Origin: an uncultured Saprospiraceae bacterium
GTDB lineage: Bacteria; Bacteroidota; Bacteroidia; Chitinophagales; Saprospiraceae
Assembly: GCA_937921825.1 (NCBI GenBank)
Contig: CAKZVK010000013.1
Span: forward strand, 1 to 44,005
Reading direction: 5' to 3'
Length of the DNA stretch: 44,005 nucleotides
Position numbers and translations under genes: made by a program. Position 1 is the stretch's first letter. Each line of letters opens with the position of its first letter. Below, one piece after another: positions 3,203 to 10,070 of the stretch. The notes under the pieces were generated by a model. The model did no database searches, was not told the DNA's origin, and saw nothing but the letters and a program-made list of their open reading frames with translations.

Positions 3203-4303
3203 CTATAGGTCTTTGGTGACGATACCACTTTTGAGCCTCGGCAGAAACCAAGTACTCTTAGGGGGTAGGGTTTGTTTCTTGTCCGCAAGTGCCGTTAGTT
3301 CTTTGACTGTCACTGGTGGAATACAGATACCGATACCGATATCCTTTTTCTTGACCGAGCTTTCGATCTTAGTCAATGGCTGGGTACCACCAAAATAACT
3401 GATACGCGTATCTACTCTTACATCTTCTATACCCAGTACACTACCGAAGACATGCTTATTGACCAAGGCACTATCTAGTAATACTTTACCCTTTTTCTTG
3501 TCGATATACTTTACTTTCCACTTTGCCTTATACCATTTGCCATCTATAAAGAAAGTCAAGTGATGTTTTTTCTTTGGTCTTAGAGGGCCATCGATAGGTT
3601 CTAGCTCGAAGTACTTAGAAAGGCCAATAATAAACTCAGATAGAGGTAAGATCTCATTGATATCTACGACTCTGTTATAATCACAAATCTTTAGCTGATC
3701 AAAAGGAAAGTAAGCCGTATAGAGGGACTTGTATTTCAAGGCCTCCGCACCTATTTGCTTGCTTTCACTTAGTAACTTGACAGTGGTGGATCTGTGATGT
3801 CCATCGCCGATATATGCTTTTTTGATCTTAGCAAAATGCTTTTGTATCATATCTATCTGCTCAGGGTTAGACACCTGCCAGATACTATGCTCTTCTTTAG
3901 TATTATCTATGGAGAACTTGATGAGCGGCTTCTTTCTCTTCGCTTTCTTCATCAAGCCATCTATTTTTTTATTGGAGTGGAAACCTAGTAGTACGGGTTT
4001 CACGAAGGCCTTCCTCTGCAGCAAGAGGTGCATCATCTGCTGCTCTTTGGCAGCTAATGTTTTTTCATGCTTCAGCACTTTTCCTGTACTCATATCTTTG
4101 ACATCTGTCAAGGTCAATAAGCCAAGATGGTTAAGTTTTCCTGATTTTATCTGGTATACAAAGAAGCTCTCTTTAGAAAGGTCTTCGTAGATATTATTCT
4201 CTTTGTATTCTCTGTATTGATGTTTGATATTAGAGAAAAAAGATCCGGGAGAGGTTATTAACTCCACCTTGGGATGTGAACCCTTGAAGGGGTAAATTTT
4301 CAT
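3203..4303 (-). CDS. DUF1015 family protein
   Basis: A DUF1015 (COG4198) protein of about 366 residues. It starts with the family's usual IYPFKG opening, has the signature YIGDGHHRSTT in the centre, and ends with a Lys/Pro-rich segment. DUF1015 proteins are cytosolic and poorly characterised; the GHHR motif suggests nucleotide or phosphate chemistry, but no reaction is claimed here. The frame is open to an ATG at 4351, but the internal ATG at 4303 (MKIYPFKG) matches the family N-terminus and the extra 16 residues do not. It is the first gene of a two-gene operon with the amidohydrolase and is divergent from the thr leader/thrS unit. Confidence 0.85.
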   Translation of the reverse strand: MKIYPFKGSHPKVELITSPGSFFSNIKHQYREYKENNIYEDLSKESFFVYQIKSGKLNHLGLLTLTDVKDMSTGKVLKHEKTLAAKEQQMMHLLLQRKAFVKPVLLGFHSNKKIDGLMKKAKRKKPLIKFSIDNTKEEHSIWQVSNPEQIDMIQKHFAKIKKAYIGDGHHRSTTVKLLSESKQIGAEALKYKSLYTAYFPFDQLKICDYNRVVDINEILPLSEFIIGLSKYFELEPIDGPLRPKKKHHLTFFIDGKWYKAKWKVKYIDKKKGKVLLDSALVNKHVFGSVLGIEDVRVDTRISYFGGTQPLTKIESSVKKKDIGIGICIPPVTVKELTALADKKQTLPPKSTWFLPRLKSGIVTKDL

Positions 4304-4397
4304 AGTCTTTAGTAGTTCATTTAGTAGGTAACTCAATATTACTGAATACATTTTTATTAGACCTCATCTTAGAGTTTTATTAGGGAGAAAGTCTGTT

Positions 4398-4430
4398 TTT
4401 GGCATTTGTTATGAGAATTCTATAGCTTTG
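4398..4430 (+). promoter_or_regulatory. Bacteroidota-type promoter of the thr leader / thrS unit
   Basis: TTTG at 4398-4401, a 21-base spacer and TAGCTTTG at 4423-4430 match the Bacteroidota housekeeping promoter (-33 TTTG, -7 TAnnTTTG) at every fixed base. Transcription would begin a few bases before the leader-peptide ATG at 4439, giving a nearly leaderless message. Confidence 0.7.
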
Positions 4431-4438
4431 TATTACTT

Positions 4439-4492
4439 ATGAATCACACTAGAAATACGAGCACCACGACCACGACACCATTAGGTGGCTGA
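4439..4492 (+). CDS. threonine-rich leader peptide (attenuator)
   Basis: This 17-codon ORF reads MNHTRNTSTTTTTPLGG, with seven Thr codons (ACT, ACG, ACC, ACG, ACC, ACG, ACA), five of them consecutive. It begins just downstream of a consensus-like promoter. Its TGA stop (4490-4492) lies inside the antiterminator strand, and an intrinsic terminator follows. This is the layout of amino-acid attenuators such as enterobacterial thrL or pheM, here in front of thrS. By analogy, scarce Thr-tRNA would stall the ribosome on the Thr run and let the antiterminator form. The peptide probably has no function of its own. Function is inferred from architecture, not from homology to a known leader. Confidence 0.8.
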   Translation: MNHTRNTSTTTTTPLGG

Positions 4493-4534
4493 CACGTCTT
4501 GTTTTTCTATCAAAATATAAGCCCTGTCAGCACT
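4476..4534 (+). promoter_or_regulatory. thrS leader: attenuator pairing region (hairpin 1:2 and antiterminator)
   Basis: Two mutually exclusive pairings can be drawn by eye. CACC (4476-4479) can pair with GGTG (4484-4487) across a four-base loop. Alternatively GGT-G-GCTGACA (4484-4494, with G4487 bulged) can pair with TGTCAGCACT (4525-4534) to give about 10 bp, which would disrupt the terminator's left arm. The GCTGACA strand contains the leader stop codon, so a ribosome finishing the leader would cover it and permit termination. Confidence 0.65.
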
Positions 4535-4553
4535 GCTGTTCGGGGCTTTTTTA
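4519..4553 (+). terminator. intrinsic terminator of the thr leader
   Basis: The outer stem AAGCCCTG (4519-4526) pairs with CGGGGCTT (4541-4548), with one G-T pair. The inner stem is CAGC-ACT-GCTG (4528-4538). A run of T's (4547-4552) follows. It ends about 85 bases before thrS, with no gene between, so it can act only as an attenuator (or read-through block) for thrS. Confidence 0.8.
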
Positions 4554-4584
4554 ATTTATTCATATGAGCAGGATATACTTCATA

Positions 4585-4618
4585 TTAGTATTTCTTGTAA
4601 TGTGATTTTTTATCTTAG
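4585..4618 (+). promoter_or_regulatory. possible second, leader-independent thrS promoter
   Basis: TATCTTAG at 4611-4618 matches five of six fixed bases of the -7 box TAnnTTTG, and a TTAG sits 22 bases upstream. The fit is weaker than that of the leader promoter. If real, it would give basal thrS expression that bypasses attenuation. Confidence 0.3.
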
Positions 4619-4635
4619 CGCAATAAATAACAACT

Positions 4636-6564
4636 ATGATCAACATCAAGTTTCCAGATGGCAATGTAAGACAGTACGAGAGTGGGTCTACGGCTATGGA
4701 TATAGCGAAGTCTATCAGCGAAGGACTGGCTAGAAATGTACTATCAGCAACAGTAAATGGGGACCACTGGGATGCCAATAGACCTATCGCCTCAGATGCA
4801 GACCTTGTCTTGCATACCTGGAAAGATGAAGGGGGCAAATACGCTTTCTGGCACTCCTCTGCACATATCATGGCAGAAGCTCTAGAAGCCCTCTATCCTG
4901 GAATCAAGTTTGCCTTCGGTCCGCCGATAGAGAATGGCTTCTACTATGATGTAGATACAGGAGATAAAACCTTGACGCCAGAGGACTTCCAAAAGATAGA
5001 AAAGAAAATGCTAGAACTGGCACAGCAGAAAAATCAGTTCGTCAGAACGGAAGTCTCTAAAGCCGATGCCTCTAAGTACTTCTCAGAAAAAGGAGATGAG
5101 TACAAAGTAGAGCATATAGAGAGTCTAGAAGATGGCTCTATCAGCTTCTACAAGCAAGGCAACTTTACTGATCTCTGTAGAGGTCCTCACATTCCTCACA
5201 CAGGCTACATCAAAGCCGTAAAAGTTATGAGTCTTGCAGGGGCCTACTGGAAAGGAGACGAGAACAGAAAACAACTTACAAGAGTATACGGCATAACTTT
5301 CCCTAAGCAAAAAGAACTCAAGGAGTATCTGCACATGCTAGAGGAAGCAAAAAAGAGAGACCACAGAAAACTAGGTGCTGAGATGGAACTCTTTATGTTT
5401 TCCGAAAAAGTAGGATCAGGGCTACCTATCTGGCTACCTAAAGGGACACAGATAAGAGAACGCCTACAAGCCTTCCTAAGAGAAGAGCAAGAGAAGCTAG
5501 GCTATAAAATGGTCGTCACTCCTCACATCGGTGGCAAGGAACTCTACATGACTTCTGGTCACTATGCGAAGTATGGGGAGGATAGTTTCCAACCGATACA
5601 GACCCCTCGTGAAGGCGAAGAGTTCTTACTCAAACCTATGAACTGCCCACACCACTGTGAGGTCTTTGGTCATCGTCCTCGTTCATACAAGGAACTACCA
5701 TTGAAAATAGGAGAATTCGGAACTGTCTATAGATACGAACAAAGTGGAGAACTCCATGGACTATCAAGAGTAAGAGGATTCACGCAAGATGATGCACATA
5801 TCTTCTGTACTACTGATCAACTCAAAGAACAATTTCTAGAAGTATTACACCTTACAACTAAGGTGCTAAACAAGATGGGCTTCACTGAATTTACAGCACA
5901 GATCTCACTTAGAGATCCTGAGAATCCTGATAAGTACATCGGCTCAGACGAAAACTGGGATGCTGCAGAGTCTGCGATCATAGAAGCTACCAAGGAGGTA
6001 GATATGAAAACTAAAACTGAACTAGGAGAAGCAGCCTTCTACGGTCCGAAACTAGATTTCATGATCAAGGATGCACTCGGCAGAAGATGGCAACTTGGTA
6101 CTATTCAGGTAGATTATAACTTACCAGAAAGATTCGAGCTAGAGTACATCGGTTCTGATAACAAAACCCATAGACCTGTCATGATTCATAGAGCTCCTTT
6201 CGGCTCTATGGAAAGATTCATGTCTATACTCATAGAACATACTGCTGGAAAATTCCCTTTATGGTTAACTCCAGAGCAATATGTGCTGATACCTGTAGAC
6301 AACAAATTCTTGCCTTACTGTGAGGAAGTAAAAGCGCAACTGGCTCAGCAGGACATCAGAGGTTTTATAGACGAGAGAAATGAGACGATAGGAAAGAAGA
6401 TCAGAGATAACGAAATGAAGAAAATTCCTATCCTACTTATCGTCGGCGAAAAAGAAATAGAATCAAAAGGCGTCGCTGTAAGATTACAAGGAGAGCAAGG
6501 TGATCAAGGGACGAAGAGCATTAGTGAATTTGTAGAGTACTTTGGGGAGCTGGCGAATGTGTAA
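4636..6564 (+). CDS. thrS: threonine--tRNA ligase
   Basis: A 642-residue class II threonyl-tRNA synthetase of normal bacterial length, which charges tRNA-Thr in the cytosol. It has an N-terminal TGS domain (about 1-60). The editing domain carries [10 protein letters not shown] and a CRGPH motif. The catalytic core contains the Zn-ligand motif [10 protein letters not shown], motif 2 ([12 protein letters not shown]...[11 protein letters not shown]) and motif 3 ([13 protein letters not shown]). The C-terminal anticodon-binding domain starts near residue 545. All key motifs look intact. The start ATG is supported by the family N-terminus MINIKFPDG. It is preceded by a Thr-rich leader peptide and attenuator at 4439-4553, pointing to control by Thr-tRNA charging. 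No translation initiation factor gene (infC) follows, unlike the arrangement in many bacteria. Confidence 0.98.
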
Positions 6565-6567
6565 GTG

Positions 6568-6595
6568 ATGATTGATGATTGATGATTGATGATTG
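6568..6595. repeat. four tandem copies of ATGATTG
   Basis: Four perfect 7-bp ATGATTG units lie head to tail directly after the thrS stop codon (TAA at 6562-6564). It is a short simple-sequence repeat in the intergenic gap, likely prone to slippage. No function is evident. Confidence 0.9.
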
Positions 6596-6630
6596 AATAA
6601 GGAAACGACATTAAATTATAACTGGAAATA

Positions 6631-7087: not shown

Positions 7088-7879
7088 ATGAAAAAAACTC
7101 TACTCCTTCTTTCTGTACTTTATGCAGCATTTTCAATGTTTTCATTTTCTGGAGGCTTTGGCAGTCCAGCGACTGGAGCCCCTGGCGAAAACGGCACGAC
7201 TTGTGGTCAAGGTGGATGCCATTCAGCAGGTCAGTTTGATGTAGAACTGAATCTCAGCATGATAGATAGTAATGGTGAAAGTGTAGAAGAATTCATAGCA
7301 GGTGAAACCTATACTGTAGCATTAAAAGTAGATCACACGGGTCTTCCTTCAGGATACGGATTTCAGATGGTATGTCTGACAGAAGATGGAGACCAACCAA
7401 TTAATAATTTCAGCGATCTTCCAGATAATGTAAAAGAAACGATGAGAATGAATCGACAATATGTAGAACATAGCAGCAGACTGCCTGTCGATTCTATTCC
7501 TATCACATGGACAGCACCTGCAGCAGAAACAGGTAGTGTGACCTTCTATGCATCTGGTAATGCAGTCAATGGTAATGGAACTTCCTCTGGAGATGGCGCT
7601 AATGTAGGCAGCTTCACTTTTATGGAACTTATGGATTCTTCTTCTGAAGAGATCTCAGCACCGACTATAGATATATTCCCTAATCCTACGACAGATTATA
7701 TATACACTGAGACTGATAAGCAAATATCTGAAATGACTGTCTTGGATATGCAGGGCAAGATTATGACCAGAACGACTAAAGACAAAGTAGATGTTTCAGC
7801 ACTAGCTAACGGACAATACATCTTAAAGATACAAACCATAGATGGCCAACAGCACTCTAAGAAAATTCAAAAAAACTAG
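7088..7879 (+). CDS. choice-of-anchor V (reeler-like) domain protein with T9SS sorting domain
   Basis: A 263-residue secreted protein. It has an N-terminal Sec signal (hydrophobic run around residues 4-18), then a Cys/Gly-rich opening (TTCGQGGCHSAG) characteristic of the choice-of-anchor V domain, then a beta-sandwich with the ETYTVALKVDHTG strand. It ends with a T9SS type A sorting domain starting at IDIFPNPTTDYIY and finishing KKIQKN. The protein is expected to cross the outer membrane by T9SS and stay surface-bound or be released. CxxxxCH resembles a heme motif but has four residues between the cysteines, so heme attachment is not claimed. A strong terminator follows. Confidence 0.85.
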   Translation: MKKTLLLLSVLYAAFSMFSFSGGFGSPATGAPGENGTTCGQGGCHSAGQFDVELNLSMIDSNGESVEEFIAGETYTVALKVDHTGLPSGYGFQMVCLTEDGDQPINNFSDLPDNVKETMRMNRQYVEHSSRLPVDSIPITWTAPAAETGSVTFYASGNAVNGNGTSSGDGANVGSFTFMELMDSSSEEISAPTIDIFPNPTTDYIYTETDKQISEMTVLDMQGKIMTRTTKDKVDVSALANGQYILKIQTIDGQQHSKKIQKN

Positions 7880-7899
7880 GGCAAACCATCTAAGAAAGA

Positions 7900-7930
7900 A
7901 AGCCTTGACAAAATGATTTTGTCAAGGCTT
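7900..7930. terminator. strong intrinsic terminator, probably bidirectional
   Basis: AAGCCTTGACAAAA and TTTTGTCAAGGCTT form a perfect 14-bp stem around the loop TGA, followed by a long T-run on the + strand and preceded by an A-rich stretch that gives some T's on the - strand. It separates convergent genes. Confidence 0.9.
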
Positions 7931-7958
7931 TTTTTTCTTCCTATATCTCTTTGCTTCT

Positions 7959-10070
7959 CTATTTCTGTACCACTATCCGCTCAGACCTCATTTCTCCATC
8001 AGCAAATCGAGCATTGACTACATAGACTCCACTATCCATATCTTCTACAGATACCCTTTCCGTTTGTGTATCAGAATTACTGCCGTCTATAGTCTTCACC
8101 AGAGATCCCGAGAGATCATAGACCGCTATCTGTTCTACCGGTATATCAGAATCTACCTGAAGAGAGAAATCTGTGCTCGCAGGATTAGGGAACATCGTAA
8201 TGCTTGCTTCATTCTGTATTTCTTCAGGCTCTTGCCGTGAAGGATCTACACTGTTTAACTCCTCTCGTATGCGACTCAGAGAAGCAGGTTCGTAATTCAA
8301 AGTTACCAGGCCATCAGCCTCTACAAAGTAATCTGTACTTGCAATATGAGGTTTATTATCCACTAGTTTTATAGAGACAATCTTCACTTCTGAGTTTATA
8401 GGAATATTTTCGAAGGCTGCTCCATTCTCATATCGCTTAGCATGCAAGACACTTCGGAATTCTTTGAAAATCATATAGTACTTTGTCGCCTCATCTCCAC
8501 CAACGACATTCACATCTGTAGTATAATTACTGTTTCTAAATCTATCACAATTGATCCAGCCTAGCTCACTAATACCTGCGATATAACTAGAAAAATCCTC
8601 TTTTGCTATCTGTCCTGTTCTAGCAAATTTCTCTTCTGTAGCTAATCGATGCGCATCAAAAACGAGGGCCTTAAGATCAGGGAAATAATTTCTTCCTACC
8701 GTAGTCATATGCTCCAGTTGCATCACTTCTAAGTTTCTTTCATCTACTATATCTCTAGTGTAATTTCCGAATGCCGACTTAAAGGTGACCCTCTGATCCA
8801 TTTTTACTGGGAAGGGTTTTTTCATAAAGGAGAATATATTCGTCAGCAATTCTACTGGTGCTCTCCTTTTATCCATTCTAGAAAGCGCTTTCACTGCGCC
8901 AAACAATTTACCCGTGTACTGAAACTGAGTGATGGCTCTTTTATGATCTTCGATAGCTTGAATTCTTCTAGTCACTTCTGCTTGCCATGCCCTTTCTGCT
9001 TTTTGATAGGCAGGCTCTTGGTTCTGATAGGTCTCTAAGTTCTGCTTATAATTAGCGTAGAGTTTATTGTATTTCTCTCCACTATAGACATTCTTAGAAG
9101 GGGGAAAAGGCTTATCCATTCTTCGTGGTCGTCGTGGCATTTCCTCAAATTCTAGTACAGGTTTGGTAATTTCTCCAAAGTCATATTCTATGATAGGTGT
9201 AAAGTCTATCATCATAGGATCATTTTTGACTTGCGTCGTCCTCAAAGTCTCACCTGTCGCATTCCATGTAATAGCACCATCGACCTCTTCACCATAGAAG
9301 AGCTCCATACCAGCTTCCTCTTTCTGCACAGGGAATATTAATTCAATCTGTTTGTCTTCTTTTAGTTGGAGAGCTTGGCCATCAGCAGTAGCATTAATGT
9401 AGATCATGCCTCCAGTCTCTAGAATCTCATCTTTACATCTAGTAACCAAGTTCTGAGATACCATATCTGTGTAAGTAAATGCCTCTATGAGTTCTAAATC
9501 AATCGCACCTGATGGTGCACTACCATCTGCGTGAACAAAAGCGGCTGCAGGAATATAGACACTGGTTCCATACTCCAGATCAAAAAACTGTGCATTATGA
9601 TCTACACTGTACCTCTGGATCAGGTCTTCCTCTGAGACACTAGTAATGAGATCATCGACATTCTCAAAATCCCAATATTGGTAGCGTAATTCTACCCTTC
9701 TGTTCTTTTGCTTTGCAGAGTTGGAATTTTCTTGAGAAAGCAAATCTCTCTCTCCTCGCCACTCTACTGCGAGGCGCTCAGTAGGAAATCCGATTGTAGT
9801 CAGATAATCTTCTACAGCTTTTGTTCTACGCTGCGCTAACGCTTCATTATAGGCCATAGTACCGTCCTGGTCTGTGTGACCGATAACTTGGATGCTATAA
9901 TCTGAATGTTGCTCTAGCTGGATTATTAGCTCAGCTAAGACCTTTTGACTTTGCTCATTAAGCGCATGGTCATCGACGTCAAAGTAGACAAACTGGCTGG
10001 AAACTTGCTGAACGGAAATGGGGATAGAGCTACCCAAAAAGAGTAGCGTCATGAAATAGAAAAATTTCAT
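7959..10070 (-). CDS. large secreted protein: N-terminal OmpA-like domain plus T9SS sorting domain
   Basis: A 703-residue protein. After a signal peptide comes an OmpA/MotB-type peptidoglycan-binding domain at about 25-130 (VYFDVDDHALNEQS, IQVIGHTDQDG, LAQRRTKAVEDYL, KQKNRRVELRY). OmpA domains usually lie at the C-terminus, so this position is unusual. The middle is beta-rich with a charged, Pro/Arg-rich, probably helical stretch (about 310-390). The C-terminus is a T9SS type A sorting domain (ITMFPNPASTDFSLQV... to IVVQK). It may bind peptidoglycan transiently or be surface-anchored; both signals in one chain are hard to reconcile with a single location. The gene is monocistronic as far as can be seen. 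Confidence 0.8.
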   Translation of the reverse strand: MKFFYFMTLLFLGSSIPISVQQVSSQFVYFDVDDHALNEQSQKVLAELIIQLEQHSDYSIQVIGHTDQDGTMAYNEALAQRRTKAVEDYLTTIGFPTERLAVEWRGERDLLSQENSNSAKQKNRRVELRYQYWDFENVDDLITSVSEEDLIQRYSVDHNAQFFDLEYGTSVYIPAAAFVHADGSAPSGAIDLELIEAFTYTDMVSQNLVTRCKDEILETGGMIYINATADGQALQLKEDKQIELIFPVQKEEAGMELFYGEEVDGAITWNATGETLRTTQVKNDPMMIDFTPIIEYDFGEITKPVLEFEEMPRRPRRMDKPFPPSKNVYSGEKYNKLYANYKQNLETYQNQEPAYQKAERAWQAEVTRRIQAIEDHKRAITQFQYTGKLFGAVKALSRMDKRRAPVELLTNIFSFMKKPFPVKMDQRVTFKSAFGNYTRDIVDERNLEVMQLEHMTTVGRNYFPDLKALVFDAHRLATEEKFARTGQIAKEDFSSYIAGISELGWINCDRFRNSNYTTDVNVVGGDEATKYYMIFKEFRSVLHAKRYENGAAFENIPINSEVKIVSIKLVDNKPHIASTDYFVEADGLVTLNYEPASLSRIREELNSVDPSRQEPEEIQNEASITMFPNPASTDFSLQVDSDIPVEQIAVYDLSGSLVKTIDGSNSDTQTERVSVEDMDSGVYVVNARFADGEMRSERIVVQK

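Follow-up and report, generated by a model that had tools for sequence, protein, structure and literature searches.

We found that the thrS gene of an uncultured Saprospiraceae bacterium is probably controlled by ribosome-mediated, threonine-sensing transcription attenuation, in which charged tRNA-Thr would hold the control; this reading is drawn from the sequence and from folding models. The whole stretch of DNA that was analysed (the window, 44,005 nt) belongs to a 4.0 Mb genome, hereafter the source genome, and the top named relatives of its threonyl-tRNA synthetase (ThrRS) are mostly Saprospiraceae. The thrS product matched TIGR00418 with 710 bits, against a cut-off of 384. The parts of the putative attenuator and their possible pairings are present in the sequence between thrS and a DUF1015 gene (Table 1), which adjoins thrS in all ten congeneric loci.

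Table 1. Coordinates of the attenuator parts, the neighbouring genes and the related leaders (positions in the window unless a locus is given)
Feature	Position	Strand	Remarks
DUF1015 gene	3203..4306	-	divergent from thrS; start codon assumed at 4306
Distal promoter P1	4398..4430	+	TTTG 4398-4401, 21-nt spacer, TAGCTTTG 4423-4430
Leader ORF MNHTRNTSTTTTTPLGG	4439..4492	+	7 Thr in 17 codons; ATG 4439, TGA 4490-4492
Region 1 (from the end of leader codon 4 through codon 8)	4450..4461	+	pairs with 4498-4509
Region 2, including leader stop codon	4488..4509	+	partner is region 1 or region 3
Antiterminator hairpin 2:3	4488..4531	+	4488-4506 with 4513-4531, 16 pairs
Intrinsic terminator 3:4	4519..4552	+	stem 4519-4548, T run 4547-4552, -16.7 kcal/mol
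Candidate proximal -7 box TATCTTAG	4611..4618	+	one base off TAnnTTTG
thrS, threonine--tRNA ligase, regulated gene	4636..6564	+	642 aa; TIGR00418
Trp-run leaders with terminators	L191:836-980 (source genome C14); L193, L177, L169		before genes best matched by trpE
MFS leader family	L159:1482-1621 (source genome C2); L160, L152, L156, L158, L163-L166, L168, L213, L214		leader and terminator

An earlier note on this DNA had claimed a promoter with all fixed bases, followed by a 17-codon leader with seven threonine codons, and both are present. We take the two boxes of the distal promoter P1 to be those of the -33/-7 type of Bacteroidota. The leader ATG lies only 8 nt past the -7 box, which suggests that the RNA is probably almost leaderless, as the note had also proposed, and we infer a transcription start a few bases upstream of this ATG. 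The threonine codons are codons 4, 7 and 9-13, and three of the seven are ACG, which is the least used threonine codon among the window's long ORFs (80 of 639). Dinucleotide shuffles of positions 4352-4635 gave an ATG ORF of 8-30 codons containing seven or more threonine codons in 4 of 20,000 cases. No second ATG ORF of this length with seven threonine codons was found in the 44-kb window, and the two others with six are 28 and 30 codons long.

The leader stop codon had been placed inside an antiterminator strand, with GCTGACA (4488-4494) opposite TGTCAGC (4525-4531), and this pairing was confirmed. The location proposed for the antiterminator is correct, but its extent is larger than the claimed 10 bp or so with one bulge: folding gives 16 pairs, and only the base of the hairpin had been seen. 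Folding also revealed a 1:2 hairpin (4450-4461 with 4498-4509), absent from the earlier note, which completes a four-strand layout of the trp type. The claimed intrinsic terminator ahead of thrS was likewise recovered by folding as a stem with a T run. Its energy is -16.7 kcal/mol in the source genome and -18.3 kcal/mol in the sister species G208, each with a T run. A consensus terminator scan and a separate hairpin scan both missed the source-genome terminator that folding detects, presumably because of its bulge. Because the neighbouring DUF1015 gene is divergent, the terminator serves no upstream gene, and its use evidently concerns P1 transcripts running toward thrS.

In the proposed mechanism, RNA polymerase would initiate a few bases ahead of the leader ATG. 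Under a shortage of Thr-tRNA, the ribosome would stall at the threonine codons and cover region 1, leaving region 2 free; the 2:3 hairpin would then form, and transcription would continue into thrS. With plentiful Thr-tRNA, the ribosome would reach the stop codon inside region 2 and block the 2:3 pairing, whereupon the 3:4 terminator would end transcription after about 115 nt. We infer both the coupling of the ribosome to the polymerase and the response to threonine.

The switch was modelled by placing the A site of a ribosome on each codon in turn, barring the RNA up to the ribosome from pairing and folding the free remainder; the RNA upstream of the ribosome was barred from pairing too. The probability of the nascent antiterminator was 1.00 with the A site at codons 2-14 in the source genome and G208 alike, fell to 0.64 and 0.34, respectively, at codon 15, and was 0.00 at codon 16, with 0.14 as the upper limit from codon 16 onward. 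All leader threonine codons, the last of which is codon 13, precede this switch point, which was shifted by one codon with footprints of 6-12 nt past the A-site codon. A looser measure placed the switch one to two codons later, with values at codons 16 and 17 of 0.84 and 0.16 in the source genome and of 0.98 and 0.59 in G208. Within the folding model, the antiterminator and the terminator exclude each other, and a ribosome at the stop codon prevents the antiterminator. At equilibrium with the whole terminator, the source genome favoured the antiterminator at threonine codon 4 (0.94) and the terminator at threonine codons 7-13 (P 0.55-0.99), and in G208 the terminator exceeded 0.96 at every codon. 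Since the terminator is favoured at equilibrium at most threonine codons, the switch must be kinetic; trp attenuation is kinetic as well. Without translation, most shorter transcripts folded best into the 1:2 hairpin, and a transcript ending at region 3 had the antiterminator with a probability of 0.98 in the source genome and 1.00 in G208.

A nascent antiterminator of equal stability was found in 1 of 1000 shuffles of positions 4488-4532, and the energy difference between a stalled and a finished ribosome was matched by 35 of 1000 shuffles for the source genome and by 3 of 1000 for G208. The switch energy and the terminator together were matched by none of 1000 shuffles in either.

Among 14 congeneric genomes, a thrS match was found in 11 (in G206 a fragment only), and the upstream region was available at ten loci. 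The earlier note had proposed an alignment of relatives as a check: the threonine codons and the pairing are kept in G208, but eight of the ten congeneric loci, and the other loci surveyed, are without the leader, leaving the source genome and G208 as its only carriers. In a DNA search of the 14 genomes with positions 4352-4635, G208 was matched at 2.9e-42 and the next match, a short one, at 0.0015. The ThrRS tree groups the source genome with G208 as its sister (support 100/99), and the two ThrRS sequences diverge by about 7%. The leader is absent from G205 and G207 (89% ThrRS identity). As these next cousins are without it, the leader looks like a recent, lineage-specific gain, unlike a conserved saprospiracean feature. 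The gap between the DUF1015 gene and thrS is 332 nt in the source genome and 319 nt in G208, and 129-214 nt in six non-carriers; two further non-carriers have gaps of 296 and 338 nt, so gap length alone is no marker of insertion.

The G208 copy has P1 as TTTG-N21-TAACTTTG, with both boxes and the spacing as in the source genome and a different spacer sequence. Its leader, MTIYRNTSTVTTTPLGD, has six threonine codons among 17 and no indel in the frame; the indels lie past the stop codon. Between the two leaders, codons 8, 14 and 15 differ synonymously, and codons 2-4, 10 and 17 differ in the encoded residue. The antiterminator pair 4488-4531 is G-C in the source genome and A-U in G208, a two-sided change, and the pair 4493-4526 is C-G and U-G, respectively, a one-sided one; in the alignment used, the pair 4506-4513 is not conserved. 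A pair-shuffle control on these two rows, with 255 of 500 shuffles as good, is uninformative at two sequences.

A wider survey took in 116 thrS loci whose upstream DNA was long enough; some genomes enter it twice, once from each of two collections. Seven threonine codons in an ATG ORF of 8-30 codons were found in the source genome only, and six in G208 and L055. A threonine filter (ATG, GTG or TTG as start codon; four or more threonine codons, and 20% or more) was passed by six of 110 loci, the window included; L105, with its ORF more than 800 nt upstream, was left out of the inspection. The ORFs of L055, L064 and L100 were rejected as leaders, since they sit in same-strand stop-free frames of 106-147 codons. 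That of L070 lies in a 98-codon stop-free frame, on the opposite strand only, and that of L010, a locus taken from the wider survey, forms the end of an ORF of 121 codons; both were rejected too. A threonine leader at thrA was considered as a source, and none was seen by eye upstream of thrA in the source genome (L111).

A model based solely on the two thrS leaders (R1) was searched in 398 genomes of the family and gave 11 matches in nine of them (E <=0.01): the two thrS sites, five leaders of MFS-transporter genes, and four sites (L153, L154, L155 and L157) that by eye are not leaders. The MFS leaders lie before related MFS genes in the source genome (E 4.2e-5) and G208 (E 0.0018), and in other genera (G225, G278 and G224). 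As about four chance matches are expected (E 0.01 per genome, 398 genomes), the case for the MFS leaders rests on their shared gene and layout and less on the weaker of the scores. The best solved-structure match of the MFS gene product is NorA (E 3e-16). A further model, R2, gave many terminator-only matches. Of 20 stretches fetched from its search, six were viewed (L191-L196), with leaders at L191 and L193, and a script scan of the remaining 14 and of ten further R2 loci gave no leader candidate. In a survey of the MFS gene itself, which was matched in 106 of 150 genomes, 30 loci were taken. All four with at least 67% identity have a leader (three by scan, L214 by eye); among the 26 with at most 45% identity, of which L232 has only about 116 nt upstream, the scan gave one candidate (L216), which is unlike the others.

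Twelve MFS leaders were read (source genome, G208, G225, G278, G224, G202, G209, G032, G206, G207, G149 and G052). Like the thrS leader, they are mostly of 17 codons (range 15-19), have a similar terminator and, in 8 of 12, carry Arg-Asn at codons 5-6. The clearest of them have AGAAATA at the Arg-Asn codons and, past the stop codon, its complement TATTTCT. The ATG lies 7-18 nt past TAnnTTTG in nine of the 11 measured, the other two being without an exact box. Unlike the thrS leader, the MFS leaders have no cognate codon run; apart from Arg in G225, no clear run of any codon was found in the 12, and none of threonine, so the MFS leader is perhaps a general ribosome-stall sensor. Their switch was less sharp in folding, the antiterminator of the source-genome leader still standing at 0.77 at the stop codon. 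With the ATG and the terminator excluded, similarity to eleven MFS leaders reached z 1.1-7.3 for the thrS leader of the source genome and z 0.3-6.5 for that of G208; the G207 MFS leader was indistinguishable from chance against the two (53 and 107 of 300 shuffles). Two-sided changes occur in 6 of 11 terminator pairs of alignment A5, with none of 500 shuffles as good, and since A5 consists of 11 MFS and two thrS rows, this covariation speaks mainly for the MFS leaders.

From these sequence comparisons, the thrS leader is likely kin to the MFS leaders. The thrS attenuator might even have arisen by recruitment of a copy of an older MFS leader cassette of the Saprospiraceae, with the scaffold (codons 5-7, regions 2 and 3, and the terminator) kept and the codons between rewritten to threonine. 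We hold this idea tentatively, giving it a little less than an even chance; if true, a codon-neutral stall sensor became amino-acid-specific within one genus. The resemblance also bears on a different reading of the element, as an attenuator of the MFS-leader type that answers to translation stress in general, in which any stalled ribosome, for example one held by an antibiotic, would lift termination and the threonine codons would add little specificity. The likeness of the thrS leaders to run-free MFS leaders beyond the terminator (z up to 7.3 and 6.5), together with the common length and Arg-Asn codons, agrees with such a sensor. However, threonine occupies 7 of 17 and 6 of 17 codons in the thrS leaders, the 12 MFS leaders have no comparable run, and the regulated gene is thrS itself. 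We therefore consider a general stress sensor unlikely and favour threonine-sensing attenuation.

The terminator and the short ORF could also be without any regulatory role, for example as a decaying insertion, with thrS driven by a proximal promoter. The presence of the element in two species only would fit this, as would a possible -7 box near thrS in both carriers: TATCTTAG begins 25 nt and ends 17 nt before the gene, and G208 has TATTTTAG at the same distance. On the other hand, the promoter boxes and their spacing, the ORF frame and the pairing are kept over about 7% ThrRS divergence, and the shuffle tests of the threonine ORF, the antiterminator, and the switch with its terminator speak against it, making an element without function very unlikely. 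The proximal box may matter even if thrS is attenuated as we propose. An exact TAnnTTTG occurs at -75 to -8 in 39 of 116 thrS loci and in the next 67 nt upstream in 17 of 116, which makes an ancestral proximal thrS promoter plausible. If active, this promoter would bypass the attenuator; the basal thrS level would come from it, and the share of thrS mRNA due to P1 would be the inducible level.

Finally, thrS is elsewhere controlled by ThrRS binding to a tRNA-like operator, as in E. coli, where the enzyme binds tRNA-Thr-like hairpins beside the start codon, or by a T-box, but for the present gene we give these modes next to no credence; no T-box was found in the thrS upstream region or, as the earlier note had expected of this lineage, in the congeneric genomes (RF00230 matches in 0 of 14, compared with 5 of 14 control genomes, including Bacillus subtilis and Lactococcus lactis, two of them over the cut-off).

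The mechanism itself is textbook; what is new to us is its place at a bacteroidotal thrS, the apparently recent origin of the switch and its resemblance to the MFS leader. The E. coli thrABC leader (Rfam Thr_leader) and the trp, his and pheST attenuators are known ribosome-mediated attenuators. The thrS leader shares with them an ORF with cognate codons, a stop codon in the antiterminator strand, the 1:2, 2:3 and 3:4 pairings and an intrinsic terminator. It differs from the thrABC leader in preceding a synthetase gene, in occurring in Bacteroidota and in its almost leaderless start, and the Rfam Thr_leader covariance model gave no match at the thrS leader, even up to E = 10. Vitreschak and co-workers reportedly predicted attenuators in Bacteroidetes/Chlorobi in a comparative study of 2004. 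As the earlier note had supposed, no bacteroidotal thrS leader appears in the titles and abstracts of the open-access papers that our searches brought up, which is a weak form of absence. In Streptomyces lividans, thrL, a leaderless ORF before thrS with two threonine codons among 18, has been read as a threonine attenuator; where the paper turns to termination, its authors call it unclear, describing one hairpin and no uridine-rich stretch (PMC8079986). Both thrL and the thrS leader described here are leaderless or nearly leaderless ORFs before thrS, but thrL is weaker and has another peptide in another phylum. The relevant passages of a 2010 study, which also name the self-regulation of E. 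coli thrS, state that leader peptides had, to its authors' knowledge, been unshown outside Proteobacteria and Actinobacteria, and add Firmicutes (PMC2965389). With the present case, leader-peptide attenuation would extend to a synthetase gene of Bacteroidota. A seemingly young switch with a traceable origin, seen in only two sister species and resembling the MFS leaders, may show how an attenuator is born and its specificity set, with the close relatives G205 and G207 representing the ground state.

Leaders of the same kind were found at other genes of the genus. In the source genome, MNRITNTWWWLDSKSDDWD precedes a gene that is best matched by the trpE model (below its cut-off) and followed by trpG, and similar Trp leaders precede genes with the same best match in G209, G200 and G204. 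In folding, the antiterminator of the Trp leaders was high at the Trp codons and low near the stop codon and at the first codons. The four show weak sequence similarity to the thrS leaders (z 2.0-2.4 for the source genome, 1.2-4.2 for G208), except those of G200 and G204 compared with the G208 thrS leader. Three of the 14 congeneric genomes, the source genome not among them, have a hisG match, and at all three loci (L241, L242 and L243) a leader with 4-6 His codons lies 150-170 nt upstream, followed, by eye, by a hairpin with a T-rich tail, the T run being broken in L243. Like the thrS leader, these Trp and His leaders combine a short ORF, a codon run matching the product of the gene and a terminator, and the amino acids differ. 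Their presence before trpE-like genes and hisG suggests that leader-peptide attenuation is native to the genus, with the same mechanism pointed to at trpE, hisG and thrS. No leader with promoter and terminator marks was found at 11 of 12 pheS loci (L271, at a contig edge, was left out), and none at 15 of 16 acetolactate synthase loci taken from 34 matches (L257 was left out).

Three further observations were made. The leader model also matched both strands of the window at 7851-7976 (E about 0.007), probably a two-way terminator between convergent genes. Directly after the thrS stop codon, at 6569-6596, TGATTGA is repeated four times head-to-tail. In G406, of the same order, the ORF MIIRHNTYYLPETLTTMNCCCWMKRTMFQRVSRVI with Cys-Cys-Cys, followed by a terminator, precedes a cysteine synthase-like gene (L172:1525-1632).
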